From positions 1-32,234 of the forward strand of contig JAKSBL010000376.1 of NCBI GenBank assembly GCA_022361115.1: a stretch of 32,234 nucleotides of DNA, read 5' to 3'. The stretch is from Spirochaetota bacterium (GTDB taxonomy: Bacteria; Spirochaetota; GWE2-31-10). The notes beneath the pieces were generated by a model that saw only the letters and a list, made by a program, of their open reading frames with translations, ran no database searches and was not told the DNA's origin. Below are positions 2,516-31,028 of the stretch, one piece after another; positions within the stretch are counted from its first letter, which is position 1, and the number at the start of each line of letters is the position of its first letter. A program made the translations under genes and the position numbers.

Positions 2516-3622
2516 TTAAACAGTCATCGGCATCATTATACAGAGATAGTCATCATCTTTCTCTTCTTTGACAGTAATGGTTGCTTTGGAATTGGTGTAC
2601 TCAATTTTTACCCGGCTATCTTTAAAGACAGAAAGCACTTCTAATAAATAAATATAATTAAAAGCAATTTTTATAGGTTCAAAAGAAAACTCCACAGGAA
2701 TGATTTCTTCACCAGATCCTAAGGTGATGTTTTCAGTATAAATTTTCAACTGATTTTCTTCTAAAGAGAAAATAATTTTATGCGTCTCCTTATCTCCTAA
2801 CAAAGAGATCCGGTCAATGGCCTGGTAAAAGGTTTGCCGATCAACGACAAAGTGTTTATCCTGTTTTTCTGGAATAACTTTTTCATAGGGAGGAAAATTT
2901 CCCTCTAACAGGTTAGAGACAAAGTAATGACCATCAATATTGATATAAATGCTTTGGGAGGTTAAAGCCAACTGGATATCGCCATTACCACTGGTTAGTT
3001 TATTGGCTTCCATCAGGACTTTGACTGGAACAATAATACTGATGTTTTCGATATTGGGCAGGTTGATTTGCTTATTGATAAAAGCCATTCTTTTCCCATC
3101 AGTAGAAACCATTCTAATGGTGTCTTCATATTTTTCTAATAAGATACCGCTAACAAATTTACGGCTATCTGTATTACTAACAGCAAATTTAGTCTTCTCA
3201 ACCATCTCAGAGTACATTTCCTGCTTGAGAGAAAAAAACTCAACATTATCAACTGGTTTAATAGGAGGATATTTATCGGCTTCTACCCCTTTCAGATGAT
3301 AAACAATATTATCATTATCCTGAGGTTTGATGGTTACTAAATTATTTTCATCTGTGGTGACTTCGATTTCATCTGCAGGCATCTTTTTTACGATTGAGTA
3401 AAAACGGTTACAGTAAACAGATACAGAGCCTGTTGATTGAACATCAGCTGGGATTTCACTGTTGTAACCTAAAGCTGTATCACTGGCTGAAATTTTTACT
3501 CCATTTTCACCTGCTTCAATTAAAACATTGGAGAGAATAGAAATACTATTTTTGGTGGATATAACATTTTCTGCAATGGTTAAAACTTTGCTTAAATTTT
3601 CTTTACTGGTGACAAATTTCAT
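2516..3622 (-). CDS. dnaN: DNA polymerase III beta subunit (sliding clamp)
   Basis: 368 aa, matching the three-domain beta clamp that tethers DNA polymerase III to DNA. Family segments include MKFVTSKENLSKVLTIAENVIS at the start, LSNVLIEAGENGVKISASDT, VSTDGKRMAFIN in domain 2 and the C-terminal end YLCIMMPMTV, which corresponds to the conserved hydrophobic cleft and PMR/PMT terminus. The ATG (3622-3620) has GGAG six nt upstream. It lies downstream of dnaA on the same strand across an unusually long 548-nt gap that I interpret as the origin. Confidence 0.96.
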   Translation of the reverse strand: MKFVTSKENLSKVLTIAENVISTKNSISILSNVLIEAGENGVKISASDTALGYNSEIPADVQSTGSVSVYCNRFYSIVKKMPADEIEVTTDENNLVTIKPQDNDNIVYHLKGVEADKYPPIKPVDNVEFFSLKQEMYSEMVEKTKFAVSNTDSRKFVSGILLEKYEDTIRMVSTDGKRMAFINKQINLPNIENISIIVPVKVLMEANKLTSGNGDIQLALTSQSIYINIDGHYFVSNLLEGNFPPYEKVIPEKQDKHFVVDRQTFYQAIDRISLLGDKETHKIIFSLEENQLKIYTENITLGSGEEIIPVEFSFEPIKIAFNYIYLLEVLSVFKDSRVKIEYTNSKATITVKEEKDDDYLCIMMPMTV

Positions 3623-3696: not shown

Positions 3697-3736
3697 TAGT
3701 ATTAGTATTTAGTAGGCATTGATAATATGTGAATAA
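3697..3736 (-). promoter_or_regulatory. Putative basal unwinding element: DnaA box plus DnaA-trio-like tract
   Basis: On the minus strand the box TTATTCACA (3736-3728) is followed after 12 nt by a tract containing CTA at 3715-3713, 3712-3710, 3705-3703 and 3699-3697 (TAG on the plus strand). Spacing is 3, 7 and 6 nt, so the 3-nt periodicity is imperfect. Family knowledge: DnaA-trios guide single-strand DnaA filament formation. The match is by eye. Confidence 0.45.
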
Positions 3737-4170
3737 TCCATTTATCTTCTTGTTATACTGTAAGTTAGCAATCAGAATAGTATGTTAATACTTATGTTAA
3801 CAATGCAATAATATTAACAGATCAATAAGTTATTGACAAGTTATTTTGACCTTTTTCATAATTTATTTTCAATGAGAATTAGAATTTTATATGAATTGAT
3901 GGAGGGGAGTAGGACTTTGAGGGATCATTCAGACACTAAAGCTACTGATAATAAAATACTGAGTAACTTGTGAATAACTGAATCGTTTATTGGAGGTTAG
4001 AGAGGAGAGTCATGTAAATGCAAAAAAACTGGTTAGGAAGGTAAGATTGATAAATATAATTTATTTCATTTTTATCATTCTGCCTGAGATATTTATTTTG
4101 TTGATGAGAAAGCTTTTCATTGATCATTAGTTTTATTGGAGAAAAATAACAATATTAAGGAAGAGATTTG

Positions 4171-5610
4171 TTATTCTGATTTGATTTTATTGATCAGATG
4201 TTCAATATCACCTTTAATTTTTGAGTCTGTATTGGTGAGGTCTTCGATTTTTTTAGTAGCATGCATAACCGTTCCATGTTCTTTATTGCCAAAGTATGTT
4301 CCAATTTGAGTAGTGGAAAGACGGGTTAGTTTTCGCGAAAGGTACATGGCAATTTGACGGGCCAGGGCAATGGATTTTGTCCTTTTATTACCGATAATTT
4401 CCTGGGTTTTCACATCATAGTATTCCCCAACCATATGGATAATTTTATCTACAGATACCGAAGAAGTGTAAATATTTACAGTTATTTTTTCTTTTAAACG
4501 GTACATAACAATATCCAAGGTAATGGTTTCGATATTCATAATACTGGAATAAGCTAGTAGATCTTTAAAAGCCCCTTTTAAATCTCGGATATTCCCTTCA
4601 ATGTTGGTACAAATGTATTCCATGGCATCATTTTTAATGGTGAGACCGTAAGTATCAGAGAGAGTCTCTAAAATAGCCATTCTCAGCTCAAAATCCGGCG
4701 GACGGAGATCTACGGTTAAACCCATACTAAAACGGCCTTTTAGCCGGGCTTCCATTTTTTTTACCTTGTAAATCGGTTGATCACAGGAAAAGATCATTTG
4801 TTTATGGTTATCATAGAGTTTATTAAAGGTATGAAAAAATTCTCCCTGTATTCCCTCTTTATTTGCAAAAAACTGAACATCATCGATGAGTAAAACATCC
4901 AGTTGGCGATATTTAATACGAAACTTTTCCTGGGCACTTGACTTTAATGAATTAACAAAATCATTGGTAAATTCTTCAGATGAAACATATTTTGCCTTTT
5001 TGGTCGGAAAATATTCTCTTATGTGTTTTGCAATGGCTTTTAATAAGTGTGTCTTGCCCAATCCACTTTCGCCCCAGATAAAATAGGGATTGTATTTTGT
5101 TCCTGGATTTTCAGCTACAGCCTTTGCTGCATGTGCTGCAAATTCATTCGAGCTTCCAATAATAAAGGATTCAAAAGTATAGTTTTCATCTTCTGACTGG
5201 GGGTTCATGATTCCGGGCTGGTTGGTAGAAAGTGGAGGAAAAGGAATATTCTTAACTTCGTTTGCCGGAGAGGTAATGATCTGGGGATGGGGAGTACTGG
5301 TCTTGCTTTCAGGCGTTTCAACAGCAGATTTTTCTACTTTTGCCATCTCTGGTTTTGCTTTATCAATTTTAAATTCTACTGAACATTGATAACCTGAAAT
5401 ATGATTTAAGGTATCAGTAATGAGTTCTTGATATTTTAAAATGTTATCTTTAATAAAATTTGAGGGTACTGCTAAGGTCATTTTTTTTTCGTTTATGTTA
5501 AACTGATCATAATCAATACGATTGATCCACATAAACATTTCATTTTGAGACAGGACACTTTCTAATTCTTTTTTAACACCATCCCAATACATGGAATACA
5601 TGTCTGACAT
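4171..5610 (-). CDS. dnaA: Chromosomal replication initiator protein DnaA
   Basis: 479 aa. Domain I covers about residues 1-80; a long low-complexity linker follows (85-140). The AAA+ domain has Walker A GESGLGKT (180-187) and Walker B DVLLIDDVQF (238-247). The C-terminal helix-turn-helix domain (about 385-479) contains ARQIAMYLSRKLT. The box-recognition signature is unusual: where E. coli has SLPEIG and GRDHTT, this protein has STTQIG (432-437) and NKEHGT (442-447). Thus residues equivalent to L422, P423, D433 and T435 are changed, while R399 (here R410) and H434 (H445) are kept. The ATG (5610-5608) has AAGAGG about 9 nt upstream. It binds boxes at the origin and opens it. Confidence 0.97.
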   Translation of the reverse strand: MSDMYSMYWDGVKKELESVLSQNEMFMWINRIDYDQFNINEKKMTLAVPSNFIKDNILKYQELITDTLNHISGYQCSVEFKIDKAKPEMAKVEKSAVETPESKTSTPHPQIITSPANEVKNIPFPPLSTNQPGIMNPQSEDENYTFESFIIGSSNEFAAHAAKAVAENPGTKYNPYFIWGESGLGKTHLLKAIAKHIREYFPTKKAKYVSSEEFTNDFVNSLKSSAQEKFRIKYRQLDVLLIDDVQFFANKEGIQGEFFHTFNKLYDNHKQMIFSCDQPIYKVKKMEARLKGRFSMGLTVDLRPPDFELRMAILETLSDTYGLTIKNDAMEYICTNIEGNIRDLKGAFKDLLAYSSIMNIETITLDIVMYRLKEKITVNIYTSSVSVDKIIHMVGEYYDVKTQEIIGNKRTKSIALARQIAMYLSRKLTRLSTTQIGTYFGNKEHGTVMHATKKIEDLTNTDSKIKGDIEHLINKIKSE

Positions 5611-5727
5611 ACAACAGAACCTCTTATAGTTATTAACAATTTATTGACAACGTATACAAAAATAGGTTAAATTTTGTAAATTTAAATAAATTTAGCAAAA
5701 TTTAATAAATATCTATAACTTCTCTTT

Positions 5728-5799: not shown

Positions 5800-5819
5800 T
5801 TATTGACAACTTATTGACA
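5800..5819 (+). repeat. Tandem TTATTGACA motifs (putative variant DnaA boxes)
   Basis: TTATTGACA at 5800-5808 and 5811-5819, with further copies at 5641-5649 and 3830-3838, all on the plus strand. The motif differs from the canonical box TTATNCACA only at position 6. The one other exact copy I noticed in the window lies inside cbiF (23499-23507). Confidence 0.5.
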
Positions 5820-18626: not shown

Positions 18627-18729
18627 ACCAATTTTTATTATCTCTTTATTAAATACTTCTTATTTGTCTTTCTTTTCCTCTGGTTTTCTTATTTATAACA
18701 TCGGTTCTATATCAAAAACAGGATTTGTA

Positions 18730-20064
18730 ATGAAAGGTATTATCATTGCTGCCCCTCATAGCGGTTCCGGGAAAACCCTTTTTAGCATAGGATTAATGAA
18801 AACCCTAACCAATCAAGGTTATGAAGTCGTTCCTTTTAAAGTTGGGCCTGATTATATTGATCCCATGTTCCACCACATAGCAATCAATCAGAAAAGTTCA
18901 AATTTAGACAGTTACATGCTGGATGATCAAACAATAAAACAACTTTTCTCAAAAAAAATGAAAAAAAACTCAATGGCTGTCATTGAAGGGGTGATGGGAT
19001 TTTATGATGGTTATGCTTATTCTGTTAAAGCTAGTACTTATGATATTGCCAGAATATTGCAAATTCCCACAATTTTGATCATCAATGCACAAGGTGCTTC
19101 CGTTAGTTTACTAGCCCAAATAGCTGGTTTTTTGAATTACCAGAAAGGGAACCAGATTAAAGGGATTATACTGAACCAGATTAAAAATTTACACCATTAC
19201 GAAGCAATGAAAAGCAAAATTGAAGAAGAACTCTCTGTTGAATGTTTGGGCTATTTACCTCCAATGGCTAATGTGAACTTTTACTCACGGCATTTAGGGC
19301 TTATTCAGCCTGCTGAAATTCCTCAAATTCAATCAATGATTAACAAAATTGCTAAAACCATTGAAGATACGGTTAATATTGATCGCTTAGTTGCTTTAAG
19401 TGATATCAAAACAGCTAAAGTAGATAATGACTCACCAGTCAATAAAAAACAATTACGAATTGGAATTGCCTTTGATCAGGCTTTTTCTTTTTATTATCAG
19501 GAAAATTTAGATTTCCTGCAGGACAATAATTTTGAACTGGTATTTTTTAGCCCTCTATCCGATCCGGAACTGCCGAAACAGCTGGATGCACTTTATCTGG
19601 GGGGAGGATATCCTGAAGTATTTGCCGAACCATTACAGCAAAACCACAGCCTCAAAAAAGAGATTAGAACCAAACTGGAAAAAGGATTTCCTTGTTTTGC
19701 AGAATGTGGCGGGCTTATTTATCTAGCTAAAAATGTCATCACTGATCAAAAGTATCAAATGGTTGGTTTTTTTGATTTTGAGATTGAATTAACCGACAAG
19801 CTTCAGCATTTTGGCTATGAAGAAGTAGAGCTTGCCGGGGCAACAACCTTTGCTCATGAATTTCATTATACTCGAATAAAAGAAAGTTCACTTGCCAACA
19901 CTAATTATGAGTTTAAGTATTCTGTAAAAAAAAGAAACAAATCCTGGCAGGAAGGGTATTCAAGAAAAAATGTCATTGCTGGTTATCCTCATATTCATTT
20001 TCTTTCTAACCAGCAATTTAGTTTAAAAATTATTGAATTATTTAAAAAAGGAAAGTCCCAATGA
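18730..20064 (+). CDS. cbiA: Cobyrinate a,c-diamide synthase CbiA
   Basis: 444 aa from the ATG at 18730, which has AGGA six nt upstream and gives the family-typical opening KGIIIAAPHSGSGKT; a longer TTG-initiated version has no SD. It uses ATP and glutamine to amidate the a and c acetate side chains of the corrin ring. The N-terminal P-loop domain contains APHSGSGKT (7-15) and VGPDYIDPMFH. The C-terminal class-I glutaminase domain contains LYLGGGYPEVFAE and FAECGGLIYL with the nucleophile Cys326. First gene of the riboswitch-controlled operon; its stop overlaps the next start (ATGA). Confidence 0.93.
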   Translation: MKGIIIAAPHSGSGKTLFSIGLMKTLTNQGYEVVPFKVGPDYIDPMFHHIAINQKSSNLDSYMLDDQTIKQLFSKKMKKNSMAVIEGVMGFYDGYAYSVKASTYDIARILQIPTILIINAQGASVSLLAQIAGFLNYQKGNQIKGIILNQIKNLHHYEAMKSKIEEELSVECLGYLPPMANVNFYSRHLGLIQPAEIPQIQSMINKIAKTIEDTVNIDRLVALSDIKTAKVDNDSPVNKKQLRIGIAFDQAFSFYYQENLDFLQDNNFELVFFSPLSDPELPKQLDALYLGGGYPEVFAEPLQQNHSLKKEIRTKLEKGFPCFAECGGLIYLAKNVITDQKYQMVGFFDFEIELTDKLQHFGYEEVELAGATTFAHEFHYTRIKESSLANTNYEFKYSVKKRNKSWQEGYSRKNVIAGYPHIHFLSNQQFSLKIIELFKKGKSQ

Positions 20065-20681
20065 TAACTGATCCACTGGAAATAGAAAAAAAAAGTTTTG
20101 AAATCATCACAAATGAGTTAAATACGAATCATATACAAATTCCCAAAAAATACGAAAAAATTATCAAGAGGGTAATCCATACAACAGCAGATTTCGAATA
20201 TGCTAGTTTATTCCAATTTTCTGATGATTTTCTTACAACTATCACCCAGGCCATTAAAACGGGCTGCCGTATATATGCAGACACCAATATGATTATTGCT
20301 GGTGTTAATAAACACCATTTAGCCAAAAATCGCTGTGAAATTTATACACTGGTTCATGAGCCAGCTATTCGGGAAGAAGCAAAGGCGAAAGGAATCACCC
20401 GATCTTTATTGGGAATGGATAAAGCCTGCCAGGATGGACAAACAAAAATTTTTGTTATTGGTAATGCACCAACAGCTCTTTTTCATTTGTATAAAAAAAT
20501 TGAAGAAGAAAAGGTTCAGCCTGCAGCAATTATTGGAGTCCCCGTGGGATTTGTAGGTGCTGGTGAATCAAAAAATCAAATTGCTTTATCTAAAATTCCT
20601 AATCTGATTATTAAAGGGAGAAAAGGGGGCAGTACTGTTGCTGCCTCAATTTTAAATGCAATTTTATACCATTACTTATGA
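20061..20681 (+). CDS. cbiC: Cobalt-precorrin-8 methylmutase CbiC
   Basis: 206 aa, standard length. CbiC moves the methyl group from C11 to C12 to form cobyrinate. The catalytic histidine is His40 in RVIHTTADFEYA; other family segments are YADTNMIIAGV, IGNAPTALFHL, IGVPVGFVGAGESK and RKGGSTVAASILNA. The start overlaps cbiA by 4 nt, which suggests translational coupling. The stop TGA ends 7 nt before the chosen cbiD start. Confidence 0.94.
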   Translation: MITDPLEIEKKSFEIITNELNTNHIQIPKKYEKIIKRVIHTTADFEYASLFQFSDDFLTTITQAIKTGCRIYADTNMIIAGVNKHHLAKNRCEIYTLVHEPAIREEAKAKGITRSLLGMDKACQDGQTKIFVIGNAPTALFHLYKKIEEEKVQPAAIIGVPVGFVGAGESKNQIALSKIPNLIIKGRKGGSTVAASILNAILYHYL

Positions 20682-20688
20682 GTCTTTT

Positions 20689-21762
20689 ATGAATGAATAT
20701 TACCAGACAATCAATGGAAAAAAACTCAAACTGGGATTTACAACTGGTACAGCAGCAGCTTTAGCTGCCAAAGCAGCTGCCCGGATGCTGAAAAATCAAC
20801 AGATCATTACAGAAATAGCGTTGATTACTCCGGCAGGTATGGAAATGAACACCAGAGTTTTTGATCAAAAATTTACTGCCCAATATGCAGAGTGTTCTGT
20901 GGTAAAAGATGCTGGAGATGATCCGGATGTAACCAATGGCTTAAAAGTACACTGCAAAGTCAGTTATCAAAAAACCAATCAAATTGAAATTATTGGTGGA
21001 CATGGAATTGGCAAAGTAACCAAAAAAGGTTTAAGTGTGGCAGTCGGAGAAAAAGCCATTAATCCTCAACCCAAAAAAATGATAAAAGAGGCTGTCGCTA
21101 GTATTCTGGATGATAAAGGATTATGTGTTAAAATCTGGGTTCCTCAGGGAAAAGAAATTGCCAAAAAAACTTTTAATCAAAAGCTGGGAATTGTAGATGG
21201 TATTTCCATTTTAGGGACAACTGGTATTGTAAAACCAATGTCCCAGGCAGCCATAATTGAAACCATTATACTGGAACTGAAAGTTTTAAGAGAACAATCT
21301 GCTACTGTTATTCTGACATTTGGTAATTATGGGAAAGATTTTGTCATCCATTCTCTGAATCTTCCGGAAAAAAACATTATTAGTATGAGTAACTATTGTG
21401 GAGAAATTTTAAAACAGGTTATTCAGCTTGATTTCCAGTCTGCCATACTGGTAGGGCATATCGGTAAAATAGTCAAATTAGCTGGTTCCATTTTTAATAC
21501 CCATTCTAGTATTGCCGATGCCAGATTGGAAATTTTAGCCAGCCATTTTGGCTATTTTTCTGGTGATATGGAAAGAATGAAAAAAATTTTTACTAGCAAT
21601 ACAACAGAAGAGGCAATTGAGTATATTGAGGATTCACAGTTTTTTCACTATTTTGCTCAAGTGATTCACAATAAGATTTTTGATTTTTTGAAAATAAAAC
21701 ACTGGAATTTAAAGGTAATGATTTTTTCTCAAAGCAGGGGGTTGCTTGGTGAAACCAGCTAA
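20689..21762 (+). CDS. cbiD: Cobalt-precorrin-5B C1-methyltransferase CbiD
   Basis: 357 aa from the ATG at 20689; an upstream ATG at 20656 would overlap cbiC by 26 nt and adds residues not typical of the family. Conserved features are LKLGFTTGTAAALAAKAAA near the start, VVKDAGDDPDVTNG, GGHGIGKVTKKGLSVAVGE and NPQPKKMI. CbiD methylates C1 of the ring and is a marker of the oxygen-independent (early cobalt) pathway. It overlaps cbiE by 14 nt. Confidence 0.93.
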   Translation: MNEYYQTINGKKLKLGFTTGTAAALAAKAAARMLKNQQIITEIALITPAGMEMNTRVFDQKFTAQYAECSVVKDAGDDPDVTNGLKVHCKVSYQKTNQIEIIGGHGIGKVTKKGLSVAVGEKAINPQPKKMIKEAVASILDDKGLCVKIWVPQGKEIAKKTFNQKLGIVDGISILGTTGIVKPMSQAAIIETIILELKVLREQSATVILTFGNYGKDFVIHSLNLPEKNIISMSNYCGEILKQVIQLDFQSAILVGHIGKIVKLAGSIFNTHSSIADARLEILASHFGYFSGDMERMKKIFTSNTTEEAIEYIEDSQFFHYFAQVIHNKIFDFLKIKHWNLKVMIFSQSRGLLGETS

Positions 21763-22393
21763 AATAAATATTGTGGGAATGGGCCCTGGAAATCCTAAAT
21801 ACATTTTTCCGTTCGTTTACAAAATAGTGCAAAACAGTGATATGGTTGTTGGGGCTAACCGCTGTCTGCAAAATTTTGATTTAAAAAATAAAAAAGTGAT
21901 TCCTATCCAATCTTCCATAAATCAAGTAGTGGATTCAATCCAAAAAAACAGAGACAAAATAATCACTGTCATAGCTAGTGGCGACCCGCTTTTTTTCGGT
22001 ATTGCCCGTACGTTCCAGCGCTTCTTTTCTATAAATGAATTAAACATAGAACCAGGTGTTTCATCTGTTCAATACCTATTAAGCAAACTTGGCAAATCCT
22101 TACCTGATTATCATTTAAACAGTATGCATGGACAAACACAAGATGTATCAAAACTGATTCAGCAATATAAAAAAATAATTTTATTAACAGATAAGAAACA
22201 CAATCCTCAAATGATTATTGATGAATTAATAAAACTGAATCAATTTAACTTCCAGATGACAGTAGGTTATCAGCTCTCGTATGAGAATGAAAAAATCATC
22301 TGCGGATCACCGGTTAATATATTAGCCCAATTACCAGACGATCCATTATCCATTGTCGTTATTGAAAGGAAAACCGAATGTATCACGGAATAA
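21749..22393 (+). CDS. cbiE: Cobalt-precorrin-7 C5-methyltransferase CbiE
   Basis: 214 aa from the GTG at 21749, preceded by AGGGGG with about 7 nt spacing; a TTG one codon upstream is less likely. The tetrapyrrole methylase fold is shown by INIVGMGPGNPKYI at the N-terminus, VVGANRCL, and the SAM-loop ASGDPLFFGIARTF. CbiE methylates C5; CbiT handles C15 and the C12 acetate decarboxylation. In many bacteria the two are fused as CobL; here they are separate and overlap by 16 nt. Confidence 0.9.
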   Translation: MKPAKINIVGMGPGNPKYIFPFVYKIVQNSDMVVGANRCLQNFDLKNKKVIPIQSSINQVVDSIQKNRDKIITVIASGDPLFFGIARTFQRFFSINELNIEPGVSSVQYLLSKLGKSLPDYHLNSMHGQTQDVSKLIQQYKKIILLTDKKHNPQMIIDELIKLNQFNFQMTVGYQLSYENEKIICGSPVNILAQLPDDPLSIVVIERKTECITE

Positions 22394-22947
22394 AGGATCA
22401 AGACTTTATCAGAAGTCAAATCCCAATGACCAAAGAAGAGATCAGAGCTATTGTACTGAGAGAATTAAAGTTACAACCCAGTTCTATCCTTCTGGACATT
22501 GGAGCGGGAACAGGCTCTATCTCTATTGAAGCAGCACAAATTACACAGCAAGGAAAGGTTTGGGCAATTGAAGAAAAACCTGAAGCAGTTACATTAATTC
22601 AGAAAAATATAAACAAATTTGGTATTAAGAATATTAAAATTATTCAGGGACAGGCTCCAGACTGCCTACAGAATTTACCTGGCTTTACTCACGCATTTAT
22701 CGGAGGATCTGGAGGAAGAATATCTGAAATTCTTACTTATTTAAAAAACCAAATATCCCGGCCTGGATATATAGCCATTACCGCTATCAATCCAGATACA
22801 GTTAGCCAGAGCTATTCATTTTTGCAGAACCAGGGTTTCCAAGAAATAAAAAGCATATTAGTCCAAATATCCCGGTCGGAAAGAGCGGGTAACTCTGTTT
22901 TATACAAAGCCTTGAATCCAATTTATATCATCAGTGCAAATATATAA
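22378..22947 (+). CDS. cbiT: Cobalt-precorrin-6B C15-methyltransferase (decarboxylating) CbiT
   Basis: 189 aa class-I SAM methyltransferase. The N-terminal GIKDQDFIRSQIPMTKEEIRA is the CbiT signature, followed by motif I LLDIGAGTGSISIEAA (38-53) and FIGGSGGRISEIL. It methylates C15 and decarboxylates the C12 acetate. The ATG lies within the 3' end of cbiE. Length is typical. Confidence 0.92.
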   Translation: MYHGIKDQDFIRSQIPMTKEEIRAIVLRELKLQPSSILLDIGAGTGSISIEAAQITQQGKVWAIEEKPEAVTLIQKNINKFGIKNIKIIQGQAPDCLQNLPGFTHAFIGGSGGRISEILTYLKNQISRPGYIAITAINPDTVSQSYSFLQNQGFQEIKSILVQISRSERAGNSVLYKALNPIYIISANI

Positions 22948-22970
22948 AGTAATTAATAAAGGAGCCATAA

Positions 22971-23726
22971 TTGACAAAAGTCTATTTTATAGGAGCTGGT
23001 CCTGGTGACCCGGAGCTGCTCACGATCAAAGGAAAAAAAATAATTGATCAAGCTGATATTATTATTTATGCAGGTTCTCTGGTTAATAAGGAGATCCTGA
23101 AAGACCATAAAAAAGATGCTCAAATCTATAACAGCGCTGAAATGACACTGGAAGAAATTACTGGTATCATGCTGAAAGAAAGGGAAAATGATTGTTTGAT
23201 TGCCCGGGTACATACTGGTGATCCTTCCATCTATGGCGCAATTAAAGAGCAGATAGATTTTTTACATCAACATGGTATTCCTTATCAAGTTATTCCAGGG
23301 GTCAGTTCTTTTACCGCTGCGGCAGCTATCTTAGAAGCAGAGTATACACTGCCTTCTGTATCACAGACAGTCATTTGTACTCGAATAGAAGGAAGAACAA
23401 AGGTTCCTGCTGAAGAAAAACTGTCTGCTTTAGCCAAACACCAGTCCAGTATGGCCATATTTTTATCCATTGGACTGATTGATCAGGTTATTCAAGAATT
23501 ATTGACAGCCTACCAGGAAGATACACCTTGTGCTGTGGTATATAAAGCCAGCTGGCCAGATCAAAAAATTCTAAAAGGAAAGCTTAATCAAATTGTACAG
23601 CAAGTTAAGGAAAACCAGATTTCCAAACATGCATTATTACTGGTCGGTCGCTTTTTAGACACAAAATATGAAAAGTCAAAACTTTATGATAAAAATTTCT
23701 CTCATGGCACCAGGAAAAGCCGGTGA
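22971..23726 (+). CDS. cbiF: Cobalt-precorrin-4 C11-methyltransferase CbiF
   Basis: 251 aa from a TTG start, supported by the strong SD AAAGGAG six nt upstream; no in-frame ATG fits the N-terminus. Motifs are VYFIGAGPGDPELLT, YAGSLVNKE, VHTGDPSIYGA, PGVSSFTAAAA and TRIEGRTKVP, diagnostic of CbiF/CobM. It methylates C11 using SAM. The C-terminus (after GRFLD) carries about 20 extra polar residues. The TGA overlaps the GTG of cbiG (GTGA). Confidence 0.93.
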   Translation: MTKVYFIGAGPGDPELLTIKGKKIIDQADIIIYAGSLVNKEILKDHKKDAQIYNSAEMTLEEITGIMLKERENDCLIARVHTGDPSIYGAIKEQIDFLHQHGIPYQVIPGVSSFTAAAAILEAEYTLPSVSQTVICTRIEGRTKVPAEEKLSALAKHQSSMAIFLSIGLIDQVIQELLTAYQEDTPCAVVYKASWPDQKILKGKLNQIVQQVKENQISKHALLLVGRFLDTKYEKSKLYDKNFSHGTRKSR

Positions 23727-24766
23727 AAAAAAGTGTCATTGCAATTACCAAGAAAGGGATTGCTTTAGGAGAAAAAATTGTGAATTGGAATTCTCAATAT
23801 GAACTTTATCTTAAAGCAGAATATTATAAAGGTAAAAACCAGAAATTTTACGGTTCGGTTATGGAATTGGTAAAATCACTCTTTCAGCAATCCCGGAGCC
23901 TTATTTTTATTTGTGCAACAGGCATAGCAGTCAGAGCTATTGCTCCATTGCTGAAGGATAAAACCAGAGATCCGGCTGTTTTGGTAATTGATGAGCAGGG
24001 CCGCTTTGTGATCAGCCTCTTATCCGGCCATTTAGGCGGAGCAAATGCAGAAGCCAGTGAGATTGCTGCCTTTTTAAACGCTCAAGCCGTTATTACCACA
24101 GCTAGTGATCTTAATCAAAAAATCAGTATTGATTTATTTGCCAAAAATAACCATCTACTCATTGATAACATGGAAATGGCCAAAACATTGACTGCTATGC
24201 TGGTGAATGAAGAAAAAGTTGCTATGATTAGTGATATTTCCATTGCCGTTCCTGATTACCTCAATCTGCCACACAATCAGGCAAAAGGTATTATTTATAT
24301 AGGAAATCGGCAAAAAAAATTTAATATACCCGCCGTCAGGTTGATCCCAAAAAATATTATCCTGGGACTTGGTTGCAGAAAAGGTAAACCAGGGAATGAT
24401 ATTATAAATTTTATCAAAACCCAACTCAAAGCTATAAGGATTGATCCTGGCAGTATCCAGAAAATAGGGACTATTAATATTAAAGAAAAAGAAGCAGGGA
24501 TATTAGAAACTGCTCAGTATTTTCATGCAGATCTGGTTTTTTATAGTAAAGATCAGCTTAACCAGGTAGCAAAGCAGTTTAAGCAGTCTGAATTTGCCTT
24601 TAAAACCACTGGCACAGGGAATGTCAGTGAAGCCTCTGCCTTTTTAGCAGGTCAGAAGAGAGGAACCTTTCTTTTAAAAAAAGCTGTTTCTAATGGAATT
24701 ACCCTCTCTGTTTTTCAAACCAGCTTCAACTATGAAGAAGAACAAAATTGTTTTAAAGACAGGTGA
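23723..24766 (+). CDS. cbiG: Cobalt-precorrin-5A hydrolase CbiG
   Basis: 347 aa from a GTG that overlaps the cbiF stop by 4 nt. The N-terminal part has ICATGIAVRAIAPLLKDKTRDPAVLVIDE and ISLLSGHLGGANAEA, the CbiG signature. The C-terminal CobE-like domain starts at ILGLGCRKGKPG and includes FAFKTTGTGNVSEASAF. CbiG opens the delta-lactone and releases the C20 fragment as acetaldehyde, a step specific to the anaerobic pathway. Length is normal. Confidence 0.93.
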   Translation: MKKSVIAITKKGIALGEKIVNWNSQYELYLKAEYYKGKNQKFYGSVMELVKSLFQQSRSLIFICATGIAVRAIAPLLKDKTRDPAVLVIDEQGRFVISLLSGHLGGANAEASEIAAFLNAQAVITTASDLNQKISIDLFAKNNHLLIDNMEMAKTLTAMLVNEEKVAMISDISIAVPDYLNLPHNQAKGIIYIGNRQKKFNIPAVRLIPKNIILGLGCRKGKPGNDIINFIKTQLKAIRIDPGSIQKIGTINIKEKEAGILETAQYFHADLVFYSKDQLNQVAKQFKQSEFAFKTTGTGNVSEASAFLAGQKRGTFLLKKAVSNGITLSVFQTSFNYEEEQNCFKDR

Positions 24767-24800
24767 GATACTTGTTCAAACAGAAAGGCAAAAAAAAGCA

Positions 24801-25532
24801 ATGAGTAAAATATATATAATAGGAACTGGCCCCGGAAACCGACAGCATATGACTGAAAAAGCGCTAACCGCAATTGAAAAAAGCGAAGTCATTATTGGTT
24901 ATGAGACTTATCTCAATTTAATAGCTGAGTTAATCACTAATAAAACTGTTTTCTCATCAAAAATGCGGAAGGAAAAAGAACGTTGCCAGCAGGCGATTGA
25001 TTTAGCTTTAAAAGGAAAAGCTGTTAGTTTAATTTCTGGAGGTGATCCAGGGATTTATGGAATGGCAGGAATTCTGTTGGAATTAATTAAAAAAGAACAG
25101 TATACCATTGATGTTGAAATCATTCCAGGAATTAGTGCAGTCAATGCAGCAGCAGCCGTCTTAGGTGCCCCTTTAATGCATGATTTTGTCTGTATTAGTC
25201 TCAGCGATTTATTAACAGACTGGCAATTAATAAAAAAGAGAATTCATTGTGCAGCACAAGGAGATTTTGTTATTGCATTGTACAATCCCTGCAGCCGGAA
25301 ACGAATTAACCAGATCAAGGAAGCACAGCAGATCCTGCTGAAATATAAAGATAAAAGCACACCCGTAGGGGTTGTAAAAAACGGAATGAGAGATCAGGAA
25401 GAGTCCTTTCTCACGAGTTTAGATATGTTTTTAGATTACCCAATTGATATGTCTACATTGATAATTATTGGAAATTCCCATACTTATATTGCTGATAATA
25501 AAATGATTACCCCCCGAGGATATTCCATATGA
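24801..25532 (+). CDS. cbiH: Cobalt-precorrin-3B C17-methyltransferase CbiH
   Basis: 243 aa from the ATG at 24801, which gives the family opening KIYIIGTGPGNRQHMT and normal length; earlier in-frame starts would overlap cbiG and add unrelated residues. The SD is weak (AAAGG about 12 nt upstream). Other motifs are IIGYETYLNLI, ISGGDPGIYGMAG, PGISAVNAAAAVLGAPL, HDFVCISLSDLLT and ALYNPCSRKR, typical of CbiH/CobJ. It methylates C17 with ring contraction. It overlaps cbiJ by 4 nt. Confidence 0.92.
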   Translation: MSKIYIIGTGPGNRQHMTEKALTAIEKSEVIIGYETYLNLIAELITNKTVFSSKMRKEKERCQQAIDLALKGKAVSLISGGDPGIYGMAGILLELIKKEQYTIDVEIIPGISAVNAAAAVLGAPLMHDFVCISLSDLLTDWQLIKKRIHCAAQGDFVIALYNPCSRKRINQIKEAQQILLKYKDKSTPVGVVKNGMRDQEESFLTSLDMFLDYPIDMSTLIIIGNSHTYIADNKMITPRGYSI

Positions 25533-26290
25533 TCTGGATTATGGCTGGAACCAGTGAATCCAAAAAAATTATTGCTTATTGTCCAGAAGAGCAAAGGATT
25601 ATTACTGTTGCAACTGCTTTAGGAAAGGAAGAATTTCAAGAATACCCCAATTTACATCATAAAGCCATGTCTTATGAAGAAATGCTGATCTTTATCGATC
25701 AAAATCAAATTCGTGTTATCATCGATGCTACCCACCCTTTTGCTGCTAATGCCTCACAAAATGCTATACTGGCAGCTAAGTCAAAAAAAATTCCTTATTT
25801 TCGCTTTGAAAGAAAGAATACTTTTATTGATCAGCAGTACTTATATGAAAGTTATGAGGAAGTCATTCAAAAGTTGCAGCAGCAAACTGGAAATATTTTG
25901 ATAACGACAGGTATTAAAAATCTTAATTGTTATCAATCCATCACTCATAACCGTTTGTTTATTAAGATTATTCCTCATCAGGCTGCTTTTTTAGCCTGTG
26001 AAAAGGCCGGTTTTTCTGCAGATCATATTATAGCCTTAAAGGGAATTCTTTCTATTCCAATGTTACAGGCGATTATTCAGGAATTCCAGATAAAACACCT
26101 GGTCATGAAGGATAGCGGATGTGAAGGAGGAACCAATCATAAATTACAAGCTTGCTTATTAGAAAAAGTAAACCCTTATGTAATAAAAAGGGAACAACTG
26201 AATTATCCCCAAGTTTTTCACACAATAGATGATTTAGTTCACTATTTAGAAAAAACCAAATACTTCCTTAATATAAAACATTGTTTTTAA
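25529..26290 (+). CDS. cbiJ: Cobalt-precorrin-6A reductase CbiJ
   Basis: 253 aa NAD(P)H-dependent reductase of the CbiJ/CobK family. Family motifs are WIMAGTSESKKI at the N-terminus, IIDATHPFAANAS, YFRFER, ILITTGIKNL and KDSGCEGGTNHKLQAC. The start overlaps the cbiH stop (ATGA). Last gene of the cbi run; a new promoter and riboswitch follow within 50 nt. Genes for CbiL (C20 methylation), a cobaltochelatase and the nucleotide-loop steps are not in this window. Confidence 0.92.
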   Translation: MIWIMAGTSESKKIIAYCPEEQRIITVATALGKEEFQEYPNLHHKAMSYEEMLIFIDQNQIRVIIDATHPFAANASQNAILAAKSKKIPYFRFERKNTFIDQQYLYESYEEVIQKLQQQTGNILITTGIKNLNCYQSITHNRLFIKIIPHQAAFLACEKAGFSADHIIALKGILSIPMLQAIIQEFQIKHLVMKDSGCEGGTNHKLQACLLEKVNPYVIKREQLNYPQVFHTIDDLVHYLEKTKYFLNIKHCF

Positions 26291-26333
26291 ATCTGTTTTT
26301 AAAATATCTTCTCAAGGATAAAATGATTTTAAA

Positions 26334-26362
26334 TTGACAAGGCAGTATGATTTTAGTATATT
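26334..26362 (+). promoter_or_regulatory. Predicted strong promoter of the uptake operon
   Basis: Perfect -35 TTGACA (26334-26339), 17-bp spacer, -10 TATATT (26357-26362). The predicted start near 26369 is about six nt before the first riboswitch helix. Confidence 0.65.
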
Positions 26363-26374
26363 ATTTCTTGAATA

Positions 26375-26463
26375 ATCAAAGAAAGAGAAGTGAAAGTCTT
26401 CCGCTAGCCCGTAACTGTGATTTTAACTTAACTTGATAAGTTAGATAAGTCAGGTCGTTTGAT
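26375..26463 (+). ncRNA. Compact cobalamin-type riboswitch
   Basis: Core elements of the cobalamin aptamer are present in about 89 nt. A GAAG/CTTC stem encloses TGAAAGT (26387-26401), then CGCTAGCCCGTAACTGTGA (26402-26420) matches the conserved GCGCTGCCCCGCAACTGTAA box, and AAGTCAGG (26447-26454) matches the AAGCCAGG box. The ends pair as ATCAAA (26375-26380) with TTTGAT (26458-26463). The outer P1 and long peripheral arms of the first riboswitch are missing, as in short cobalamin classes. Between aptamer and gene, AAACCTAT (26517-26524) can pair with ATAGGTTT (26590-26597), hiding the SD of the next gene, which suggests translational control. Confidence 0.75.
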
Positions 26464-26598
26464 ATTCGCAAATCTATTATATTCATGACTTCGAGGATAG
26501 AGTCGGGAATATACCAAAACCTATGTAGTCATATAAAATTGGTATTACTCATTTGTTATTCAGTTTATCCTTGTTTATATTTTATTAGGATAGGTTTA

Positions 26599-27090
26599 AT
26601 GTTTGAAAAGCAGATTAAGAGCATTTTTATTATCATGTTGTTCTGTCTTCCATTTTTTCTACTTCATTCACAAAAGAGGGGATCATTACAGCAGTTAGAT
26701 TTCAATCAGCAAAATCAGCACACATTTATTACGCAAAAAGGAATTGCTGTCTCTTTAAATAGCATAACTATTTTCCAGGCAAATAACATGACTCATACAA
26801 GAAAACAATTTATATTAGAAAAAGTGATGATTTCCATTGGAGTCATTCATTTTGCTGTTGGAATTCCCTTGATTGTTATGGGAATTATCAATTATATTAC
26901 CCCCTATCATAATTATTCATCCATAACCAATGATCAGGCAAAATACTTTACTCTTACTGGTTCCGTTATATTTGGTTTGGGAACAACCTTGTTTATACCA
27001 GGAGTGGTAAGTATTGGAATAAAAATTCGAAAAAGGAAAAAACAAATGAATAAACCAAAATCAGATCTTTCTTACTCATCTCAATTTTAA
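26599..27090 (+). CDS. Unknown membrane protein, first gene after the compact cobalamin riboswitch
   Basis: 163 aa from the ATG at 26599, preferred because AGGATAGG lies just upstream; an in-frame ATG at 26485 lacks any SD. The N-terminus (about 6-25) is a signal peptide or signal anchor. Two membrane helices follow (about 93-115, ISIGVIHFAVGIPLIVMGII, and 127-150, LTGSVIFGLGTTLFIPGVVSIG), ending in a basic cytoplasmic-type tail (KIRKRKKQMNK). No family recognised. Its position ahead of exbB-exbD-exbD-tonB-receptor under one riboswitch suggests a part in corrinoid uptake. Confidence 0.65.
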   Translation: MFEKQIKSIFIIMLFCLPFFLLHSQKRGSLQQLDFNQQNQHTFITQKGIAVSLNSITIFQANNMTHTRKQFILEKVMISIGVIHFAVGIPLIVMGIINYITPYHNYSSITNDQAKYFTLTGSVIFGLGTTLFIPGVVSIGIKIRKRKKQMNKPKSDLSYSSQF

Positions 27091-27100
27091 GGAGTTCCTA

Positions 27101-27706
27101 TTGAAAACAAATTTACTATTTTTCTATTTTCAACAAGGGGGGCCTTTTATGTATCCTCTGTTTTTATTCTTATTTGGTGCCCTCTTTTTCATCATTGAAC
27201 GGCTGCTAGTTTTTACTCAGTTCAACTGGAAAACCCGTTATCAAATCAGTGATCTTAATCAAAACTATACGATAAAAAAACAAAATCGATTTACTTTGAT
27301 TCTTAAAAGCAACCTGAAATACTTTTATAATAATGGTGAAAAGTTTAATCAAATGATGGAAGTTGATATGCAAAACATTATTAACTATCTGGAAAAAAAT
27401 CTCAATTATTTAACAGCCATTGCTACTTTAGCACCCATTACTGGCTTTTTAGGTACTGTTTCCGGGATGATTATTGCTTTTAAAGATATCACCAATGCAG
27501 CAGATGTGACCCCGCAATTAGTTGCCGGCGGTATTTACGAAGCCCTGATCACTACTGCTACAGGATTGCTCATTACCATATTTACTTCTTTTTTTTATTT
27601 CTTGTTCACAGGAAAAATCAAAAAGTATATTACAAACCTTGAGCTGACAGTTAATGAAATCTATAAAGCAATTGAAACAGGAAAATTACAAGATTATGAA
27701 AATTAA
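27101..27706 (+). CDS. exbB: ExbB/TolQ-type proton channel subunit
   Basis: 201 aa from a TTG start, supported by AAGGAG six nt upstream. The MotA/TolQ/ExbB family is shown by GGPFMYPLFLFL in TM1 (about 14-34), IATLAPITGFLGTVSGMIIAF in TM2 (about 104-127) and GGIYEALITTATGLLITI in TM3 (about 143-166). With ExbD it forms the proton-driven motor that energises TonB. It is shorter than E. coli ExbB (244 aa), as in many TonB2-type systems. The 3' end overlaps the start of the first exbD. Confidence 0.9.
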   Translation: MKTNLLFFYFQQGGPFMYPLFLFLFGALFFIIERLLVFTQFNWKTRYQISDLNQNYTIKKQNRFTLILKSNLKYFYNNGEKFNQMMEVDMQNIINYLEKNLNYLTAIATLAPITGFLGTVSGMIIAFKDITNAADVTPQLVAGGIYEALITTATGLLITIFTSFFYFLFTGKIKKYITNLELTVNEIYKAIETGKLQDYEN

Positions 27707-28079
27707 AAAACACTCTAATATCCAGGCTGATTTTTGGGAAGGGACAATGAGTGATATTGCTTTTCTACTCATCATTTTTTTTATACTCACTACTTTTTTC
27801 AGTCTCCCCTATATTTTAAAATTCAACCAGGCTTTTTCCAATCAGGAAAATATCCGTGAAGACCAATTAACTACTATCGAGATCAATGAACAAGGTATCA
27901 TATTATTAAACAATAAAACCATTACATTAAATAAATTATCAAATTCATTTAATCAACAAGATAAATACCGGATAAAAGTGCATGCGAAACGGCCATACCA
28001 GGAATTCATTGATTTGCTAAATCTATTCTATGAACATAGAATCACAAAATTTGAGGTTGATACACAAAATGAAACTTAA
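27696..28079 (+). CDS. exbD: ExbD-family protein (first copy)
   Basis: 127 aa from the ATG at 27696; a longer frame from 27654 would run inside exbB. A short cytoplasmic N-terminus is followed by one membrane helix (MSDIAFLLIIFFILTTFF) carrying the proton-binding Asp20, then a periplasmic domain ending with a strand-rich region (IKVHAKRPYQEFIDLLNLF). The SD is weak, consistent with coupling to exbB (11-nt overlap). First of two ExbD-type genes. Confidence 0.87.
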   Translation: MKIKKHSNIQADFWEGTMSDIAFLLIIFFILTTFFSLPYILKFNQAFSNQENIREDQLTTIEINEQGIILLNNKTITLNKLSNSFNQQDKYRIKVHAKRPYQEFIDLLNLFYEHRITKFEVDTQNET

Positions 28080-28449
28080 AACAAAAAAGAATACATTAAA
28101 TATTCCAGTTACCAATATGGCTGACATTGCCTATTTACTTTTAATTTTTATTATAATTTTAAGCCTATTTAATAAAAATTATCAATCAGGTGTTGAGCTT
28201 CCCATATCTACTGGTTCGGAATTTCAGGATAAGGGAAATCAACTGGTCATAACACAAAAGGATTATTTATTAAATGATCTGGTAATCCTGAACATTCGTA
28301 CTTTAAAAAAAGAGTTACTTAAAATTGATAAAAGCAAACCAGTAAAGATTATTGCAGACCGTGAATTGGATTTTAGTTATATTCGCAATACTTTATCTGT
28401 TTTAAAAGAACTCAAATTTAATAAAATTGAATTTTTGGTTTCCGATTAA
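28069..28449 (+). CDS. exbD: ExbD-family protein (second copy)
   Basis: 126 aa from the ATG at 28069. The membrane helix VTNMADIAYLLLIFIIILSLF keeps the essential Asp (Asp19). The periplasmic domain shows GVELPISTG, VKIIADRELDFSYIRNTLSVLKELKFNKIEFLV, very typical of ExbD. The start overlaps the first exbD by 11 nt; the next ATG follows its stop directly. The two copies are diverged, so they probably form a hetero-pair, not a recent duplicate. Confidence 0.88.
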   Translation: MKLKTKKNTLNIPVTNMADIAYLLLIFIIILSLFNKNYQSGVELPISTGSEFQDKGNQLVITQKDYLLNDLVILNIRTLKKELLKIDKSKPVKIIADRELDFSYIRNTLSVLKELKFNKIEFLVSD

Positions 28450-29058
28450 ATGAATAATAATTTCATTTCGTTTTCAATCACCCTGTTTATCACATTCCTC
28501 ATATTTTTTATCCCAACTAAGCAAAGTAATCCCGTTTTAAAGGAAAAAGCAGTCCAAAAAAAAGTTGTAATTAAAAACTTCACTCTGATGAATTATAAAA
28601 TCATCCCTAATCATCAATTACCATCTGAAGACAATACTAAAAAAAATAAAAAAGAAAAGAGAAAAGAGGAAAATAAAAATTCCCAGCAGGCAATAAAAAA
28701 TAACCAAACAGAAAAAAAAGCAGAGTCCAAAGAAGTAGAAAAGCAAATTGATGCAAGTCAAGAAACCAGTAAGCCCATAAAGATCATTAATTATACCCCT
28801 GATTTTACCATTGACCAAATTCCTGTTTACCCGGATAAAGCAAAAAGAATGGGTCAGGAAGGAACAGTACAAATCTTAGTGATTACTGATATAAATGGAA
28901 AAATTCAGCAAGCTGTCATAAAAAAGTCATCTGGATACCCTTTATTGGATACATCAGCTTTAAAAGCAGTACGTAAATGGAGATTTTCTCAATTGAACTT
29001 ACAGGATAATAAAAATTATTTTAAAACAGAAATCGAATTTAAGTTAAGAAAAAGATGA
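28450..29058 (+). CDS. tonB: TonB-like energy transducer
   Basis: 202 aa. One N-terminal membrane anchor (about 6-23) is followed by a Lys/Glu/Gln-rich linker (about 58-100) in place of the usual Pro-Lys repeats. The C-terminal TonB domain (about 118-202) has YPDKAKRMGQEGTVQILVITD, GKIQQAVIKKSSGYPLLDTSAL and AVRKWRF. It spans the periplasm and transmits the ExbBD force to the outer-membrane receptor. The ATG directly follows the exbD stop, and its TGA overlaps the receptor start by 4 nt, indicating a dedicated transducer-receptor pair. Confidence 0.9.
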   Translation: MNNNFISFSITLFITFLIFFIPTKQSNPVLKEKAVQKKVVIKNFTLMNYKIIPNHQLPSEDNTKKNKKEKRKEENKNSQQAIKNNQTEKKAESKEVEKQIDASQETSKPIKIINYTPDFTIDQIPVYPDKAKRMGQEGTVQILVITDINGKIQQAVIKKSSGYPLLDTSALKAVRKWRFSQLNLQDNKNYFKTEIEFKLRKR

Positions 29059-31028
29059 AATATAAACAATTTATTAATTTTATTACCTTACTCATGATCA
29101 CTATTGTAGCATTGTCTGCTGAAGAAATCGACCTGGGTAAGATTGAAGTTATTGATGATCAGGAAAATCAATATGAAAAAGATGATCAACCAGAAACTTT
29201 TACAACCATTATTGAAGTTGATGAAAAAGATGAGACGAAAAACATTGCTGAAATATTATCTGCCTCAGCTGAAGTGTTTATTAAAGATACTGGTGGGGAA
29301 GCAGGAATCAGTACAGTATCTATTCGAGGAAGTACTTCCAAAAATGTTTTAATTTTAATAGATGGTTTACCTATCAATACTGCTGGAAACAGTTCTTTTG
29401 ATATTAGTATGATCCCTGCGAGTTCAGTGGAAAAAATTGAAATCATTCGAGGGGGGGATGCCTCATTATATGGTCCTGGAGCCATGGGTGGTGTCATCAA
29501 TATCATTACCAAAAAAACCGATAGAAACTATTTTAAAAACACAGTCAGTTCAAAGCTCAATCAATCATTTCATAACATTATGTCATCCGGGATTTATCAT
29601 CAGCACTTTGATCTCTTTATTTCTCTGGATTATCTTTATGACCAGGGAAATTATCAGTATTTTGATAATAATGGCACAGAGTTCAATGAAGAGGATGATA
29701 CTTTACAAGAACGAGCACACAATTGTGTTGAAAAAAACAGCTTGCTCTTAAAACAAAATTTTTATTTTCCACAAAATATTACTGCTGGTTATAGTTTTCA
29801 TTATAATGTGAAAAAAAATGAAATAGCTGGACCTTTAACTTTTGAAAATCATTTTGAAAATGCTTTTTTTAATACTAGTTTAATGAATATAGGAACAACA
29901 TTCAGTTTAGGAAACTCTAATCCCTACTTTACAGGAGATTTTTTCCTGAATTACAAAAAAGATTATTACCAGTATACTAATCCCCAAGAGTATGGCGGAG
30001 CCAGTTTAGAATCTACCAGAACAACCCATTTTGTTAAACATAAATTTCATTTTCAAATACTGGCCATCCCTTTTAATCTATTACATGTAATTGGTGAGTT
30101 TTCTTATGAAAATATAGAGGGAATCAGTCAGGACGAAGACCTATTTATTGCTGAAACAATTATCCCATCCAGAATAGAAATCTCAGGAATTATCAGAGAT
30201 GAGTTTCTGGTTTATCATGAAAAAATCGGGATGATACCAACTGCCCGTTTTCAATACAATAGTGATTTGGCTAAAAAATTTCACTTTTTATGGAATCTGG
30301 GAGCTTTTTTTAAACCGGCTAAAGGTTTAAAATTGAAATTCAATGGTTTTCATGCTTTTAGAAACCCGGATTTTACTGAAATGTATTACTCCTACGGCCA
30401 ATATGTAGGAAACCCAGATCTTAATCCTGAGATATCCTATGGAGGGGATGCGGGGATTCACTACAAACATAAATACTTCTTTGTTGAATCGGCTTTCTTT
30501 TGTACCTATTATCAAAATTTAATCATGTATCTTTTATCTTATGGATTTGTATATAAACCCAAAAATGTGGGAAATGTCATCTCTTTTGGAGGAGAGTTTC
30601 GTTTTCACTTTCATATGATTAAATTTTTTAACATTCAGCTCAGTTATACTCTCAATTATGTCAATGATTGGGAAGATTTAAAAAATGGAATTTTAAAACA
30701 ATTACCAGCTCATCCGCTGCAAACTCTGGTTAGCAGCATTAAACTAAACTTTCCTACTAAAATATTTCAGTATAATCTGGGGACACAGTTTAAATTTGAA
30801 GACTCAATTTTAATTACCTATAATGGTAGTAAATTTATTCCCCCCAAAATCATGATCGATTTTTTTTGGAGAGTCACAGCCCAGGATATAAAAATACTGG
30901 AACAGAACATCATCAATTTCACAATATTTATGAATATCAATAACCTGCTCAATATCTACACAACAGATGTGAGAAATTATCCATTAGAAGGATTTAGTGT
31001 GGAAATCGGCAGCTCATTTCAATTTTAA
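29055..31028 (+). CDS. TonB-dependent outer-membrane receptor, probably for corrinoids (BtuB-like)
   Basis: 657 aa. A signal peptide (about 1-22) is followed by a TonB-box-like segment (IDLGKIEVID). The plug domain (about 45-155) shows ILSASAEVFIKDTGG, VSIRGSTSKNVLILIDGLP, SSVEKIEIIRGGDASLYGPGAMGGVINIITKK. A 22-strand barrel follows with alternating aromatic strands, ending in a C-terminal Phe (GSSFQF), the BAM recognition signal. Size is close to BtuB (about 600-660). Corrinoid specificity is inferred from the cobalamin riboswitch upstream and the neighbouring cbi operon, not from sequence motifs. Confidence 0.88.
   Translation: MKYKQFINFITLLMITIVALSAEEIDLGKIEVIDDQENQYEKDDQPETFTTIIEVDEKDETKNIAEILSASAEVFIKDTGGEAGISTVSIRGSTSKNVLILIDGLPINTAGNSSFDISMIPASSVEKIEIIRGGDASLYGPGAMGGVINIITKKTDRNYFKNTVSSKLNQSFHNIMSSGIYHQHFDLFISLDYLYDQGNYQYFDNNGTEFNEEDDTLQERAHNCVEKNSLLLKQNFYFPQNITAGYSFHYNVKKNEIAGPLTFENHFENAFFNTSLMNIGTTFSLGNSNPYFTGDFFLNYKKDYYQYTNPQEYGGASLESTRTTHFVKHKFHFQILAIPFNLLHVIGEFSYENIEGISQDEDLFIAETIIPSRIEISGIIRDEFLVYHEKIGMIPTARFQYNSDLAKKFHFLWNLGAFFKPAKGLKLKFNGFHAFRNPDFTEMYYSYGQYVGNPDLNPEISYGGDAGIHYKHKYFFVESAFFCTYYQNLIMYLLSYGFVYKPKNVGNVISFGGEFRFHFHMIKFFNIQLSYTLNYVNDWEDLKNGILKQLPAHPLQTLVSSIKLNFPTKIFQYNLGTQFKFEDSILITYNGSKFIPPKIMIDFFWRVTAQDIKILEQNIINFTIFMNINNLLNIYTTDVRNYPLEGFSVEIGSSFQF

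Follow-up and report, generated by a model that had tools for sequence, protein, structure and literature searches.

Probable co-evolution of the DnaA recognition helix and the DnaA box in an uncultured class of Spirochaetota

Few protein-DNA codes of bacteria are as conserved as that of the initiator and its box, and the cytosine at box position 6 (C6) and Asp433 of DnaA are usually taken as fixed. In the Escherichia coli protein, R399 reads the 5′ TTA of the box and the recognition helix the 3′ TnCACA (PMC5742627). Published work places D433 and T435 at base contacts (PMC7561715, PMC8235120, PMC9638019): D433 and L438 contact box position 7 (PMC8235120), and residue 435 contacts bases (PMC9638019). 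The epsilonproteobacterial DnaA proteins of H. pylori and A. butzleri, with boxes of TTCAC core, have a lineage-wide preference with T at position 5, tied to recognition-helix changes at 435 and 438-439; these changes were suggested to explain the protection of the guanine opposite position 6 (PMC5043019), the mapping to position 6 being our own reading of the box. Thermotoga maritima offers another naturally occurring DnaA whose box, AAACCTACCACC, is non-canonical (PMC4285127), and for Dehalococcoides a box with G at position 6 (G6), TTATCGAAA, was proposed by prediction only, with Ori-Finder (PMC2275245).

The locus described here belongs to an uncultured class of Spirochaetota. Like E. coli and B. 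subtilis, it combines a full-length DnaA and a homologous helix-turn-helix (HTH) domain IV with 9-mer boxes, and like B. subtilis it has a bipartite origin with a box and DnaA-trio unwinding arrangement, seen in our case at the level of sequence. It differs from both in that its DnaA has R432K, D433E and T435G, that C6 of the TTWTNCACA box is mostly A or G, and that position 5 is mostly T. The epsilonproteobacteria keep C6 and D433, whereas in this class position 6 itself changes. The T. maritima box is different and longer and comes from an unrelated lineage, and the Dehalococcoides box, unlike that of the class, has A7 C8 A9 altered too. DnaA and the G6 box TTATTGACA were not found together in the literature searched.

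The window, that is, the whole stretch of 32,234 nucleotides analysed, comes from a Spirochaetota MAG of 5.30 Mb in 734 contigs, whose closest named relatives are Spirochaetes bacterium GWE1_32_154, ADurb.Bin133, Go_SlDig_bin_318 and GWB1_27_13 (DnaA identity 60-77%). Its dnaA gene (4171..5610, minus strand) codes for 479 amino acids. The protein scores 478.3 bits against TIGR00362 (curated equivalog cut-off 343.9), and PF11638, PF00308 (Bac_DnaA) and PF08299 (Bac_DnaA_C) all lie above cut-off within it, showing a single unambiguous full-length chain with an N-terminal, an AAA+ and a C-terminal HTH domain; domain IV is homologous to structures 1J1V and 8BTG. Bac_DnaA_C matches this protein alone in the whole genome, and no second DnaA was found. 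After dnaA follow dnaN (2516..3622, minus strand), which bounds the origin gap, then recF, a DUF721-like gene (called by eye) and rnpA. GC skew is weak across the window and becomes positive near dnaA. Elsewhere, positions 18664-31028 carry a cbi-like cobalamin-biosynthesis gene run and, after it, genes resembling ExbB/ExbD/TonB and one for a TonB-dependent receptor, all ordinary-looking by eye in the ORF translations.

The DNA-reading residues were located by MAFFT alignment to E. coli. Codons of T433-H450 (4261..4314, minus strand) specify the HTH helix pair STTQIGTYFGNKEHGTVMH, equivalent to E. coli 422-439; among them, those of T433/T434 (L422/P423) lie at 4309-4314 and those of K443-E444-H445-G446, the class-specific start of the recognition helix (R432-D433-H434-T435), at 4273..4284 on the minus strand. 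The counterpart of the minor-groove residue R399, R410 (4381..4383, minus strand), is kept, as are R407, Q408, H434 and H439, while L422T, P423T, E424Q, G431N, R432K, D433E, T435G and L438M are changed. The preliminary description had assigned R410, T433/T434 and E444-H445-G446 to E. coli 399, 422-423 and 433-435, and both its numbering and its coordinates are correct; R432K is a further change absent from its list. At the near-invariant base-contacting positions D433 and T/S435 there are thus E and G in the window protein, and E/Q and G/A throughout the class, as a variant feature of a protein which is still a member of the DnaA family.

How far do these changes extend in the phylum? We compared eight DnaA loci of the window's class with 72 other Spirochaetota DnaA loci. 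The usual Spirochaetota form of the first motif is STT[E/Q][I/V/L]G, so that Thr-Thr at 422/423, regarded in the preliminary description as part of an unusual combination, does not mark the window DnaA and, being normal where boxes are canonical, cannot explain a box shift. The other part of that claim stands, since in the domain IV alignment across the phylum the start of the recognition helix is unusual and D433E/Q with T435G/A is restricted to the class. E/Q433 with G/A435 occurs in 8/8 class DnaAs and 0/72 others; outside the class D433 is present in 68/72 loci (three Ala, one Asn) and Thr/Ser435 in 71/72 (one Ala). A degenerate-codon scan of 393 phylum genomes found the DnaA pattern [K/R]-E-H-[G/A]-T in this class only. 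It gave no sign that E433/G435 arose independently in other parts of the phylum: its ten matches outside the class were judged non-DnaA, mainly by position relative to dnaA places and not by translation. The class forms a single clade of the DnaA tree (support 100/100).

Other variants of the helix were seen in the same set. Another Spirochaetota clade (L130, L136, L138; genomes G026, G103, G123) has D433A with Arg439 (KAH[TS]), and near its dnaA genes we recognised no clear box motif or cluster. One DnaA with H434Y (RDYS; L101, G365) is accompanied by a ten-box TTAT..ACA array, mostly TTATGCACA or TTATCAACA, located 2.3-2.5 kb downstream of dnaA and not adjoining it.

Around the window's dnaA the boxes lie on both sides of the gene. 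Upstream, an outer pair consists of TTATTGACA at 5811..5819 (plus strand, -209 from the dnaA start) and TTATTGACA at 5800..5808 (plus strand, -198), 11 bp apart, and an inner pair of TTATTGACA at 5641..5649 (plus strand, -39) and TTATTAACA at 5630..5638 (plus strand, -28). In the dnaA-dnaN gap there are TTATTCACA at 3969..3977 (minus strand), TTATTGACA at 3830..3838 (plus strand), which overlaps a promoter-like match, and TTATTCACA at 3728..3736 (minus strand), which keeps C at position 6 and adjoins a DnaA-trio-like run, CCTACTAAATACTAATACTA, leading into AT-rich DNA (3697..3716, minus strand), the proposed unwinding site, identified from the letters alone. This is the layout of a bipartite oriC, with box clusters flanking dnaA and one box beside CTA-type trios and AT-rich DNA. 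Position 6 near dnaA is G in 4/7 boxes, A in 1/7 and C in 2/7, a departure from the C6 of TTWTNCACA; TTATTCACA is retained at three places of the window, the trio-adjacent box among them. Exact copies of TTATTGACA number five in 32 kb, with four, all on the plus strand, around dnaA at 3830, 5641, 5800 and 5811. With 139 copies in the 5.30-Mb genome, four within 2 kb have P of about 3e-7, or about 8e-4 when corrected for all 2-kb windows.

The same shift was found in the class as a whole. In the non-coding flanks up to 700 bp from dnaA (expectation from dinucleotide-preserving shuffles), the eight class loci contain TTATTAACA 17 times (0.65 expected), TTATTGACA 10 times (0.15), TTATTCACA 3 times (0.13), and neither TTATTTACA (0; 0.61 expected) nor TTATCCACA (0). 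In the other 72 loci the counts are 62 for TTATCCACA (0.35), 14 for TTATTCACA (0.75), 17 for TTATTAACA (2.1) and 1 for TTATTGACA (0.63); the 32 AT-rich loci among them have no TTATTGACA (0.48 expected), and TTATCCACA is kept in AT-matched relatives. Chance and base composition are rejected as the source of the class boxes by the shuffles together with these AT-matched relatives. A ranking of 9-mers independent of any motif placed TTATTAACA and TTATTGACA among the most over-represented in class flanks, and TTATCCACA and TTTTCCACA led in the others. When each box position was varied in turn, mainly positions 5 and 6 had moved in the class and the rest stayed tight: T1 T2 A/T3 T4 and A7 C8 A9 are as in TTWTNCACA at the class loci, while position 6 is A, G or C and never T. 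The association has P of 8e-10 by box and 1e-5 by locus; as the counts pool related species, these values describe association and not independent events. Individual genomes vary: the KQHG genome G046 has no recognisable box beside dnaA, and G060 has boxes with A at position 6 (A6) and no G6 boxes.

The altered boxes occupy places homologous to those of ordinary boxes. Minus-oriented pairs 11 bp apart upstream of dnaA are a layout common to the class and its relatives, often at roughly -250/-240 and -35/-24 in other Spirochaetota, where position 6 is C or A and never G in 32 such pairs from 27 loci. The window pairs have (G, G) at -209/-198 and (G, A) at -39/-28, and GWE1_32_154 has G at -196 and (A, G) at -35/-24. 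In the dnaA-dnaN gap a box is followed by a CTA-type DnaA-trio run, and in 36 other loci position 6 of this trio-anchored box is C in 25, A in 10, T in 1 and G in 0. The trio-adjacent box is TTATTGACA in G067 and G001 (L045 and L046, one genus), TTATAAACA in G038 and G060, and TTATTCACA in the window; in G027 the box-like TATTGACA abuts the trios in 4/4 copies of a repeated segment. G6 boxes therefore occupy a site where DnaA would be expected to nucleate, and class members have A6 or C6 boxes in use too. The G027 repeat (L047, contig G027:C259, 1091-3683) is itself peculiar: the box-plus-trio segment lies between dnaA and dnaN in four copies, three of them at a spacing of 920 bp. The cassettes that separate the first three copies code for two proteins, one of 62 aa and one of 134 aa, the latter bearing a retropepsin-like DTGA motif. 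The repeat could be an amplified origin segment, an inserted element or an assembly artefact.

Across the whole of five class genomes we counted 10 exact pairs of the form TTATTRACA-NN-TTATTRACA, four of them in the window's genome and two of those four at dnaA; the reversed control gave 0 matches in the class genomes, and TTATNYACA pairs gave 0 in all nine genomes scanned. Pairs or clusters of TTATTRACA also lie in gene gaps of class genomes away from dnaA (G000:C170:3418-3457, G000:C168:14062-14081, L150 3901-4095, L151 4219-4430). These may be promoters under DnaA control, sites of DnaA titration or, for G046, an origin that has moved.

The best explanation of these data, which we consider probable, is that DnaA domain IV has co-evolved with its box in this class. 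The window would then hold a replication origin of bipartite form surrounding dnaA, in a class whose ancestor changed the N-terminal end of the recognition helix from R/K-D-H-T/S to K-E-H-G, alongside E424Q and G431N/D, as the origin boxes passed from the TTATCCACA type to TTATT[G/A/C]ACA. At position 6, where C had been preferred and A came second, A and G would now be favoured, C tolerated and T shut out; position 5 would have become T, and domain IV would read the remaining positions in the same geometry. DnaA would assemble both on the upstream box pairs and, in the dnaA-dnaN gap, on the box next to the trios, where it would unwind the DNA; its binding to the class boxes is predicted. The recurring variant motif which the preliminary description noticed around dnaA is indeed present, as the four copies of TTATTGACA, and the shifted specificity it proposed fits the class-specific change from C to G/A at homologous sites. 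A clean switch to TTATTGACA does not fit: TTATTAACA is at least as common as TTATTGACA in the class and the window's unwinding-site box is still TTATTCACA, so that the specificity looks shifted and widened. A stronger version, in which Glu433 and Gly435 themselves recognise the G or A of position 6, so that the origin is partly orthogonal to canonical DnaA, is a tentative proposal to which we give somewhat under an even chance.

Could the boxes have changed under an unchanged DnaA? AT-biased mutation might have decayed them into weak AT-rich sites while the helix changes were neutral. The class flanks are indeed 73-84% AT, and A6 boxes exceed expectation in AT-rich relatives with ordinary DnaA too, with lower excess. 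Yet replacing C by G at position 6 brings in no A/T, and the G6 box is the most enriched over expectation. The change from C to T, which is the most frequent of those towards AT, was observed 0 times against 1.35 expected, and AT-matched relatives lack TTATTGACA and keep TTATCCACA. This origin of the boxes is therefore improbable. Still less credible, to the point of being very improbable, is that the TTATTGACA copies are sigma-70 -35 elements (TTGACA) and not DnaA boxes. A -10-like hexamer does stand 18 nt downstream in 2/4 window copies (3833 CATAAT, 5644 TAAATT), but the copies face against the direction in which dnaA and dnaN are transcribed, no -10 accompanies the 5800/5811 pair, and promoter-like matches in the region number 18, close to the shuffle mean of 13.9 (sd 3.4). 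Moreover, TTATTAACA is found as partner at the spacing of boxes, and relatives have canonical boxes at the homologous places.

More serious, though we think it rather unlikely, is that the box change is real but was caused by other class-stem changes (such as E424Q, G431N/D, R432K or the whole fold) and not by D433E/T435G. The class stem is long (0.66 changes per column), and the changes at 424, 431 and 432 fall on the branch that also carries those at 433/435. The sole relative with D433 and A435 (RDHA; L124) has ordinary TTATTCACA and TTATTAACA boxes, so that loss of Thr435 alone does not seem enough. On the other hand, of the positions that changed it is 433 and 435 for which published structures describe base contacts, and K432 is present also in relatives with canonical boxes. 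Given those base contacts, the longer acid at 433 and the loss of the side chain at 435 could plausibly have altered the position-6 preference. There was one evolutionary event only, in which residue and box changes could coincide on one long branch; that 433/435, rather than another change on this stem, are responsible is our inference.

Co-evolution of domain IV and its box would have practical and evolutionary consequences. Origin finders relying on TTATCCACA would miss the origins of this class. A coordinated change throughout the class would also be a natural experiment, in which an essential protein acting at several genomic sites changed its specificity, apparently via a widened intermediate accepting A, G and C.
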